A DNA stretch of 64,000 nucleotides from Oscillospiraceae bacterium. Its GTDB lineage: Bacteria; Bacillota; Clostridia; Oscillospirales; Ruminococcaceae. How positions within the stretch are numbered: position 1 is the first letter of the stretch; each line of letters begins with the position of its first letter. The notes under the pieces were generated by a model that was given only the letters and a program-made list of their open reading frames with translations, was not told the DNA's origin and ran no database searches. Both the position numbers and the translations under genes were made by a program. Below are positions 66-2,917 of the stretch, piece after piece. The stretch covers positions 1 to 64,000 of the forward strand of contig JAQXGE010000045.1 of the NCBI GenBank assembly GCA_029006135.1, given 5' to 3'.

Positions 66-141
66 GGGAGTTTAGCTCAGCTGGGAGAGCATCTGCCTTA
101 CAAGCAGAGGGTCAGCGGTTCGAGTCCGTTAACTCCCACCA
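66..141 (+). tRNA. tRNA-Val(TAC)
   Basis: gggagtt...aactccc acceptor stem, anticodon TAC, GGTTCGAGTCC T-arm, encoded CCA. Confidence 0.95.
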
Positions 142-145
142 ATTT

Positions 146-222
146 GGCCCGGTAGTTCAGTTGGTTAGAACGCTAGCCTGTCACGCTAGAGGTCGTCAGT
201 TCGAGCCTGATCCGGGTCGCCA
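146..222 (+). tRNA. tRNA-Asp(GTC)
   Basis: ggcccgg...ccgggtc acceptor stem, anticodon GTC, T-arm, encoded CCA. Confidence 0.95.
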
Positions 223-225
223 TAT

Positions 226-301
226 GCCTCTGTAGCTCAGTCGGTAGAGCAGGGGACTGAAAATCCCCGTGTCATTGGTTCGATTCCGATCGGAGGCACC
301 A
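226..301 (+). tRNA. tRNA-Phe(GAA)
   Basis: gcctctg...cggaggc acceptor stem, anticodon loop ctGAAaa, T-arm GGTTCGATTCC, CCA. Confidence 0.95.
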
Positions 302-337
302 TTTCTTTTGCAGCTTCTTTTAAAGAAACTGCATTTT

Positions 338-413
338 GCGGCCGTAGCTCATCTGGTAGAGCGCCACCTTGCCAAGGTGGAGGTAGCGAGTTCGAGCCTC
401 GTCGGCCGCTCCA
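338..413 (+). tRNA. tRNA-Gly(GCC)
   Basis: gcggccg...cggccgc acceptor stem, anticodon GCC, CCA; second copy of the gene at 1-62. Confidence 0.95.
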
Positions 414-426
414 AAAAATAGTGGAT

Positions 427-449
427 ACCGGCTTCCTTAGCCGGTTTTT
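427..449 (+). terminator. Small GC-rich hairpin plus T-run between tRNA-Gly and tRNA-Cys
   Basis: ACCGGC-ttcctta-GCCGGT followed by TTTT. Confidence 0.55.
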
Positions 450-459
450 CACTCATTAT

Positions 460-534
460 GGTGACGTGGCCAAGTGGTAAGGCAAGGGTCTGCAAAACCC
501 TCATTCGGCAGTTCAAATCTGCCCGTCACCTCCA
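460..534 (+). tRNA. tRNA-Cys(GCA)
   Basis: ggtgacg...cgtcacc acceptor stem, anticodon GCA, CCA. Confidence 0.95.
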
Positions 535-773: not shown

Positions 774-2486
774 ATGAACAAAAGAAATTTGATTGGCTTT
801 GGCGCAGTAGTTGCCGCTTCAGTAGTTCTTGTGGTTGCAACGCAGATGGTTAAGACAAAGCGCATTCAGGACGTGACAGGCGGTGCAGAAACCGTGACAC
901 TGACCGGAGAGGGCGAGGGCTATGGCGGTCCTATCTCGGCAGAAGTGATTGCTGCAGGGGATAAGATTGTTGGCCTGACGCTGACTGGCGAAAAGGAAAC
1001 TCCGGAAATCGGAGGGGCGGCCCTGAAAACCCTTCAGGAGAACATCGTAACCGCGGGCGGACTTGACGGTGTGGATGCTGTGGCGGGGGCCACCTGGACA
1101 TCGAAAGGCGTCTTTGCAGCTGTTGAGTCTGCCATGGGATGGGACGAGACAGAGAAAGATGAAACTGGCACACAGGAAGACGCGGCGCAGGCCGTGGTAA
1201 CGACGGGCACGCTCTCTCACGGACTGGGCTTTGCCTCTAATGGCAGACTGGGCCCCGGCAAGGATGACCAGGGCGTCGGCGTTTACAGCTTCAACGAGGC
1301 TGTGGCATATGTCATTTTCGATGATGCCGGGAGAATTGTGGACCTCGAGGTTGATGAGTTAGAGGTGGCAAGCCCAAACTATGACGGCGAGTATATGCCG
1401 AACTTCACCGGCTTCCCGGGACAGAGCTATAACGCAGATACAAACCACGATGAAGCGGTAGATGCAGTCCTGGAGCAGACGGAGGATACCTTCTTGTCTG
1501 ATGTGGAAACGTGGAAGACAAAGAGGGAACGCGGTGAAACCTATAAACTGAATTCCGGTACCTGGGAAGATGAGATGGACATCTTCGAGGAATTCTTTAA
1601 AGGAAAGACCGTGGAAGAGATTGAGCAGTGGTATGCAGAATCCTGCTCGGACCTTAACGGCAGACCGCTGTTTGGCACATCCGAAAAGGATGAAGACGTT
1701 GCAAAGTATGAGGCAATGTCGGATGAGGCAAAGTCTCAGCTGGACACCATCGCCGGCGCGACAATGTCCTTGAATGATGCACATGGCAATATTATTGGTG
1801 CGATTGCACGCGCGTATGAGAACCGTCAGGAAATCGGAAATGCTGAAGTAGCAAAGATTGGCCTTGGCTTTACCAGCAATGGCCGCCTCGGACCCGGTAA
1901 GGACGATCAGGGCGTTGGCGTTTACAGCTTCAATACGCAGGCGGCAGGTGCTTGCTACGATGCCGAAGGCAAGATCACTGCACTTCTCGTGGATGTGATG
2001 GAGGTCGCTACTCCGAACTACGATGGTGAGTATATGCCGCATCTGACCGGTTTCCCGGGACAGAGCTTCAATGCGGATGCGGACCACGACGAAAAAGTTG
2101 ATACGGTCCTGCAGCAGACGGAAGATACCTTCCTGGCCGAGATTGAGGCATGGCAGACCAAGCGCGAGCGCGGTACGACTTATAAGCTGAATTCCGGCAC
2201 TTGGACGGATGAGATGGATTTGCTGCAGCAGAAGTTTGTCGGTATGACGGCGGATGAAGTGAATGATTGGTTTGCCGCTTACTGCTCTGATGTGAACGGA
2301 AGACCGCTGCATGGGACCTCTGACAAGGAAGAGGACATTGCCAAATATGATGCACTTTCCAATGCGGAAAAGGCAGATTTGGATACGATTGCGGGTGCAA
2401 CCATGAGTCTGAAAGATGCTCACGGTGACCTGATTGGCGCAATTGAAAATTCCTGGAAAAACGCAAAGGCGGTCTCCGCTCAGTAA
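774..2486 (+). CDS. Membrane-anchored FMN-binding-domain-like protein with tandem C-terminal modules
   Basis: N-terminal hydrophobic anchor; DAVAGATWTS and two LDTIAGATMS motifs resembling FMN-binding/flavinylation sites; two ~213-aa repeats. Confidence 0.75.
   Translation: MNKRNLIGFGAVVAASVVLVVATQMVKTKRIQDVTGGAETVTLTGEGEGYGGPISAEVIAAGDKIVGLTLTGEKETPEIGGAALKTLQENIVTAGGLDGVDAVAGATWTSKGVFAAVESAMGWDETEKDETGTQEDAAQAVVTTGTLSHGLGFASNGRLGPGKDDQGVGVYSFNEAVAYVIFDDAGRIVDLEVDELEVASPNYDGEYMPNFTGFPGQSYNADTNHDEAVDAVLEQTEDTFLSDVETWKTKRERGETYKLNSGTWEDEMDIFEEFFKGKTVEEIEQWYAESCSDLNGRPLFGTSEKDEDVAKYEAMSDEAKSQLDTIAGATMSLNDAHGNIIGAIARAYENRQEIGNAEVAKIGLGFTSNGRLGPGKDDQGVGVYSFNTQAAGACYDAEGKITALLVDVMEVATPNYDGEYMPHLTGFPGQSFNADADHDEKVDTVLQQTEDTFLAEIEAWQTKRERGTTYKLNSGTWTDEMDLLQQKFVGMTADEVNDWFAAYCSDVNGRPLHGTSDKEEDIAKYDALSNAEKADLDTIAGATMSLKDAHGDLIGAIENSWKNAKAVSAQ
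1221..2483 (+). repeat. Tandem 213-aa (639-nt) protein module, two copies
   Basis: GLGF(A/T)SNGRLGPGKDDQGVGVYSFN begins at nt 1221 and again at nt 1860, offset exactly 639 nt; both copies end in LDTIAGATMSLxDAHG. Confidence 0.93.
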
Positions 2487-2832: not shown

Positions 2833-2917
2833 GGGAGCTTTCCCGAGTGGCCAATGGGGACAGACTGTAAATCTGCTGCTTAATGCTTCGGTGGTTCGAA
2901 TCCACCAGCTCCCACCA
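2833..2917 (+). tRNA. tRNA-Tyr(GTA)
   Basis: gggagct...agctccc acceptor stem, anticodon GTA, long variable arm, CCA. Confidence 0.95.

Follow-up and report, generated by a model that had tools for sequence, protein, structure and literature searches.

A candidate multi-flavinylated extracytoplasmic protein combining one FMN_bind domain with a pair of large repeated modules

The gene, its protein and its surroundings

The window investigated in this study, a stretch of 64,000 nucleotides from a gut-type bacterium, contains at positions 774-2486 of its forward strand an open reading frame that encodes a protein of 570 amino acids. The protein consists of an N-terminal hydrophobic segment followed by a compact domain, a linker and two large modules, and each of these three units carries one candidate site for the covalent attachment of FMN. 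The features and the evidence for each are listed in the following lines.

774-2486, + strand: gene of a putative three-unit flavoprotein, 570 aa (ORF call, tRNA calls, neighbourhoods of homologues)
786-848, + strand: N-terminal hydrophobic segment, predicted signal anchor (hydropathy up to 2.2; AF2 helix at aa 17-35)
918-1136, + strand: FMN_bind domain PF04205 of the FMN-bind1 type (50.5 bits, cut-off 22; match to 8p2b)
1074-1094, + strand: site 1 motif D101-A-V-A-G-A-T107 (DAVAGATWTS at nt 1074-1103; Thr codon 1092-1094)
1146-1205, + strand: flexible linker between FMN_bind domain and modules, aa 125-144 (AF2 pLDDT < 50)
1209-1847, + strand: module 2, aa 146-358, FMN-bind2-like (unrecognised by Pfam; AF2 pLDDT 84, pTM 0.81)
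1437-1463, + strand: acidic loop D222-x-N224-x-D226-x-x-x-D230, module 2 insertion (alignment)
1743-1763, + strand: site 2 motif D324-T-I-A-G-A-T330 (Thr codon 1761-1763; GAT invariant in 26 modules)
1848-2483, + strand: module 3, repeat of module 2, aa 359-570 (639-nt repeat, alignment)
2076-2102, + strand: acidic loop D435-x-D437-x-D439-x-x-x-D443, module 3 insertion (alignment)
2382-2402, + strand: site 3 motif D537-T-I-A-G-A-T543 (Thr codon 2400-2402; codons diverged synonymously from site 2)

With a tRNA cluster upstream (window 66-534) and a lone tRNA-Tyr downstream (window 2833-2917), the gene is apparently monocistronic. Its neighbours in the window are these tRNAs, a transaldolase-like gene and Trk-type genes, with protein names assigned from reading the sequences, and the linkage of eetA, fmnB, eetB and fmnA that is found in the Listeria-type locus for extracellular electron transfer (EET) is absent among them. 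Neither the gene nor its close homologues adjoin an apbE or an electron-transfer gene, and no conserved operon surrounds these homologues, whose neighbours differ from one to the next. The GC and GC3 contents are in line with those of neighbouring genes. Within the genus, the modules were detected solely in the genome containing the window, which is one out of 35 sampled, with other congeners matching unit 1 alone, and they consequently do not belong to the core equipment of the genus. Since tRNA-Tyr is found next to other neighbours in two congeners, no empty insertion site can be read from the comparison, and one may at best guess that the gene was acquired by horizontal transfer.

The 570-residue protein is predicted to be anchored to the membrane and to reside outside the cytoplasm, as would be required of a substrate of the flavin transferase ApbE. 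Besides the anchor helix of the protein itself, this location is reflected in its relatives, where the anchor segment is replaced by a lipobox (L019, L021, L023, L028 and L036) or by a LysM wall domain (L037), both of which place the modules on the outside of the cell.

Three candidate sites in two kinds of unit

The three D-x-x-A-G-A-T motifs are found exactly where the original prediction had located them, with the ORF re-read confirming Thr107, Thr330 and Thr543 as candidate acceptors. All three sites conform to the ApbE-substrate motif D-x-x-[S/T/A]-G-A-[T/S] and are conserved in homologues, although they contain Ala at position 4, where the published strict motif has Ser or Thr. The protein thus carries more than one extracytoplasmic flavinylation motif, of whose units the published criterion based on PF04205 would clearly count one. 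The anticipated duplication of 213-residue modules is equally evident, with a repeat period of exactly 639 nucleotides and 63% identity between the copies.

It could be argued that such motifs are accidental features of a surface protein that has an unrelated function and contains a duplication, particularly since two of the three reside in copied modules and are therefore not independent in origin. We regard this explanation as highly improbable. In shuffled sequences, the strict pattern D..[SGAT]GAT, which is found three times in the protein, occurs on average 0.02 times per sequence and three occurrences were reached in none out of 20,000 shuffles. In light of the duplication, selection offers a better test than shuffling: the pair of modules shows a dN of 0.29 at a dS of 2.96, the latter being near saturation, which corresponds to a dN/dS of about 0.1, and the segment LDTIAGATMS is identical in both copies despite differences in nine of its ten codons. 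The motif is also retained across 12 homologues from Lachnospiraceae and other clostridial genomes, which share 57-79% identity across the modules. Together with the window protein, these homologues provide 26 modules, and the motif is present in every one of them. Finally, a chance origin would be difficult to reconcile with the confirmed identity of unit 1 as FMN_bind domain.

This identity is supported by sequence and model alike. Residues 49-121 match PF04205 at 50.5 bits, far above the curated cut-off of 22, and the closest sequence in the PDB is domain 1 of CbFMN4 (8p2b, E 1e-8). The AF2 model of the unit superimposes on chain A of the same structure with a TMt of 0.82 and an rmsd of 2.2 (Foldseek, prob 1.00) and it also matches the flavinylated crystal domain 8p2a (prob 1.00). 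In crystals of CbFMN4 and SaFMN3 domains, the equivalent Thr is modified with FMN (PMC10339131). As part of a bona fide FMN_bind domain, Thr107 constitutes a site that is as good as prediction gets. In four homologues (L018, L020, L024 and L025), E..SGAT replaces D..SGAT at site 1, with the module sites retaining their Asp, and a further homologue (L022) contains two FMN_bind units ahead of the module pair.

The situation is different for modules 2 and 3. The search against FMN_bind that had been proposed for each unit recovered the first one but left the modules, with 17.8 and 13.3 bits, below the cut-off of 22, the match in module 2 being split by an insertion. Searches of NCBIfam and of PDB families with both modules gave no matches, and a profile search of the PDB with the module alignment retrieved chance matches, with a best E of 2. 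When aligned with FMN_bind by hhalign in local and global mode, the similarity of the module profile is confined to the motif and the last helix (E 5e-4, prob 32%). A Foldseek search with the module model, which is based on a shallow alignment, contained no FMN_bind structure among the best 50 PDB matches listed, and the best of the matches listed, to IscU, is not significant, with an E of 0.056 and an rmsd above 10. In the AF2 model, three β-strands are followed by an insertion of short strands and helices, helix α1, a second helical insertion, the motif and helix α2. This order of elements is, within the confines of the shallow alignment, compatible with that of FMN_bind supplemented by two insertions. 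The modules may well share the FMN_bind fold, although Foldseek retrieved no such structure among the matches listed and the profiles align only in the motif and the last helix. The full-length model has a pTM of 0.72, a value that would be hard to reach with the floppy linker unless modules 2 and 3 were packed against each other, and the two thus probably form one unit.

The same observations bear on a different reading, in which Thr107 alone is flavinylated and the modules constitute a separate fold whose D..GAT turn would play a structural role, with the modules serving to dock or bind a partner, a metal ion at the acidic loop or a wall polymer. It is favoured by the failure of Pfam and NCBIfam to recognise the modules, by the missing FMN_bind fold among the Foldseek matches listed, and by the many invariant residues outside the motif, which include R13, P16-G17, PNYD, GFPGQ, TKRERG and W119. 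The residues that are invariant in and around the motif in all 26 modules are, in module numbering, Asp179, Gly183, Ala184, Thr185, Met186, Asp190, His192 and Gly193. However, a motif of seven residues is sufficient for modification by ApbE, where replacement of Thr by Ala abolishes labelling and that of Asp by Ala has a minor effect (PMC12052999). This, together with the properties of relatives described below, makes the restriction of flavinylation to Thr107 unlikely in our view.

The acidic loops in the first insertion of both long modules, with the pattern D-x-[D/N]-x-D-x-x-x-D, resemble the calcium loop of EF-hands or dockerins and are possible calcium-binding sites, with no EF-hand or dockerin match detected in the protein by Pfam. 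Relatives at greater distance, with single or compact modules, lack the loop.

Relatives of the modules and their gene context

A profile of the long modules (A2) identified further relatives with variable architecture. These include a lipoprotein with a single module and the motif DVTSGAT (L036), two proteins that combine LysM and module and contain the motif DVTTGAT (L037 and L038, the LysM domain scoring 47 bits in L037), two in which an FMN_bind domain precedes one module with the motifs DVVATAT and DVVAKAT (L034 and L035, respectively), and a double-module lipoprotein from the taxonomic family of the window with the motif DVTSTAT (L028). Throughout these relatives, the Thr is constant whereas neighbouring residues of the motif drift.

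The gene of the single-module lipoprotein is the last of a cluster of genes on the same strand, in the order NusG_II, apbE, PF07456, ecfT and module, where the ECF-T-like gene was assigned from a CbiQ match below cut-off. The NusG_II protein of this cluster presumably corresponds to EetA. In the EET locus of Listeria, the flavinylated lipoprotein PplA is encoded together with eetA, fmnB (an apbE), eetB and fmnA, and EetB (PF07456) is the substrate subunit of an exporter that supplies ApbE with FAD (PMC9973259). By its place in the run of NusG_II, ApbE, PF07456 and ECF-T-like genes, the module lipoprotein occupies the position of PplA. The presence of a DVTSGAT lipoprotein with a single module within an apbE-eetB cluster thus argues against modules that would be devoid of flavin. 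In another locus (L059, G626:C97), a protein composed of FMN_bind domain and long module, a protein of two compact modules and apbE are consecutive on one strand, which joins the long and compact branches in one apparent operon.

The compact branch emerged from weak matches (L029-L031 and L039) to module versions of about 150 residues that lack the two long insertions. A profile constructed from seven compact modules (A4) has matches in 44 of the 399 genomes of a phylum sample, including that of the window, and reaches module 2 of the window protein with an E of 1.4e-6. Compact modules almost always occur as tandem pairs, and no Pfam or NCBIfam family was assigned to them in the examples tested. 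An apbE is located within 1.5 kb in 25 of 30 fetched loci, with three of the remaining five ending at a contig edge. The proteins with two compact modules that adjoin apbE (L064-L093, from G339, G346, G351 and others) include several lipoproteins. In one locus (L062), a compact-module lipoprotein is part of a run with the order rnfC-D-G-E-A-B, NusG_II, eetB, module and apbE.

In their candidate acceptor sites, the compact modules show both conservation and divergence. The canonical motif is found in none of 60 modules, and the absence of its Gly-Ala would be in line with a structural role of the turn. The Thr at the flavinylation position is nevertheless retained in all 59 aligned modules, even where Gly-Ala is lost, and it is mostly preceded by [E/D]LxS[S/L]V. 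The sequence [E/D]LxS[S/L]VT could thus represent a further ApbE motif or else mark a lineage that has lost covalent attachment. The former is plausible in light of mutants of the ApbE motif, where an Asp to Ala exchange has a minor effect, and Gly to Ala and Ala to Val exchanges reduce labelling to about half (PMC12052999). The idea that the genomes with compact modules would be 'orphan apbE' genomes was ruled out, since all 39 of 39 also encode FMN_bind proteins, and the compact protein need for that reason not be the sole substrate of the adjoining apbE. Since these relatives reside beside apbE without containing the canonical motif, such adjacency alone does not prove flavinylation of a module.

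Based on these relationships, we tentatively propose, with slightly less than even confidence, that the modules define a family of ApbE-substrate domains that is not modelled by Pfam and NCBIfam, with a long branch that carries the canonical motif D..[SA]GAT and a compact, paired branch with [E/D]LxS[S/L]VT that numerous genomes of the phylum encode beside apbE. The module profile finds many apbE-linked relatives that are invisible to a survey based on PF04205. Were the Thr of the compact modules flavinylated, the accepted ApbE motif would be too narrow, and a class of flavinylated lipoproteins would have escaped surveys relying on this motif and PF04205. The compact family, with its link to apbE and its invariant but non-canonical Thr site, is the more interesting by-product of our study, and it offers a direct probe for the strictness of motif recognition by ApbE.

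A proposed role in electron transfer and its relation to known systems

Among the genomes carrying long or compact modules, ApbE was found in all 19 examined, compared to 126 out of 200 for the phylum, a contrast that is indicative only as the carriers are in part related. As had been noted, apbE is absent from the window, and the only match in the genome is located on another contig (G000:C73, 202 bits). The suggested genome search for apbE and RnfD-like partners was successful, with the single apbE accompanied by an Rnf cluster that includes RnfC, RnfD and RnfG, and the genome also contains one EetB-like gene of the FAD exporter type, which is located apart from apbE.

Collectively, the described features make it probable that the protein is an anchored extracytoplasmic electron-transfer protein with three covalently attached FMN molecules, in agreement with most of the original interpretation. 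For the up to three flavins of the original prediction, the evidence differs between sites: Thr107 is backed by its FMN_bind domain, and the flavinylation of Thr330 and Thr543 is supported by conservation, by extracytoplasmic relatives and by gene contexts with apbE and EET genes. A reductase activity, which had been suggested as well, finds no specific support, since the protein does not contain a reductase domain. From these considerations we infer a mechanism including flavinylation, donor, acceptor and the direction of electron flow. Once exported, the protein would receive FMN from FAD on Thr107, Thr330 and Thr543 through the action of ApbE, whose gene is located elsewhere in the genome. 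Electrons would enter at the FMN_bind domain on its flexible tether, with the Rnf complex or an NADH/quinone route as the most likely membrane donor, and continue to the two flavins of the unit that the tandem 213-residue modules form. From there, they would reach an acceptor outside the membrane that is either soluble or associated with the wall.

Multi-flavinylated proteins have been described previously (Meheust et al. 2021, PMC8238504) and include SaFMN3 and CbFMN4 (PMC10339131). With these, the window protein shares an N-terminal anchor, several units of the FMN_bind type with D..GAT, the extracytoplasmic location and flexible linkers, and domain 1 of CbFMN4 is the closest solved structure to its unit 1. 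However, SaFMN3 and CbFMN4 are built from repeats of a single compact domain, whereas in the window protein one compact FMN_bind domain is followed by two 213-residue modules beyond the reach of PF04205. Such a combination of one FMN_bind domain and a pair of large modules would represent a new architecture among proteins for which a role as flavin-based equivalents of multi-heme cytochromes has been proposed (PMC8238504, PMC11334425).

Among published domains, the modules are closest by description to FMN-bind2, a larger variant of about 160 residues with insertions between β1 and β2 and between β3 and α1, which typically occurs in even numbers that are predicted to form face-to-face pairs (Huang et al. 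2024, PMC11334425). The modules of the window likewise form a tandem pair, with the order β-β-β-(insertion)-α-(insertion)-motif-α. In contrast to FMN-bind2, the modules of the window comprise 213 residues with a second insertion located between α1 and the motif, and members with a single module exist (L036-L038). The compact sister modules are paired and about 150 residues long.

A narrower version of the multi-flavin reading would assign the protein to one known chain, either as a PplA-like part of a Listeria-type EET system or as an RnfG-like part of Rnf. Module lipoproteins are indeed found in such settings, where one takes the place of PplA in a NusG_II-apbE-eetB cluster (L056), a likeness by gene position alone, and another is embedded in the described rnfCDGEAB-NusG_II-eetB-apbE run, and the genome of the window contains Rnf and an EetB-like gene. 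Like the window protein, RnfG and NqrC contain an anchored FMN_bind domain, in their case with an SGAT motif. Conversely, the window gene resides outside such a locus and is unlinked to these genes, the EetB gene of its genome does not adjoin apbE, and the restriction of the modules to one of 35 genomes sampled from the genus is unexpected for core equipment. The protein also differs from RnfG and NqrC by its extra modules and by scores far below the family cut-offs (with unit 1 matching NCBIfam RnfG weakly at 27-32 bits for a cut-off of 205), and its genome already encodes an RnfG. We thus view the assignment to a single known chain as credible but rather doubtful, and favour a multi-flavinylated electron carrier in the broader sense.

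Two further proteins were encountered during the analysis. In a congener (L008, G010:C21), two FMN_bind domains are fused to a domain that, when read by eye, resembles flavoproteins of the fumarate-reductase type. In the genome of the window, a small lipoprotein with the sequence IDTIAGAT and an FMN_bind match below cut-off is encoded divergently beside rnfC (L004:410-874, G000:C43) and is possibly another flavinylated partner of Rnf.
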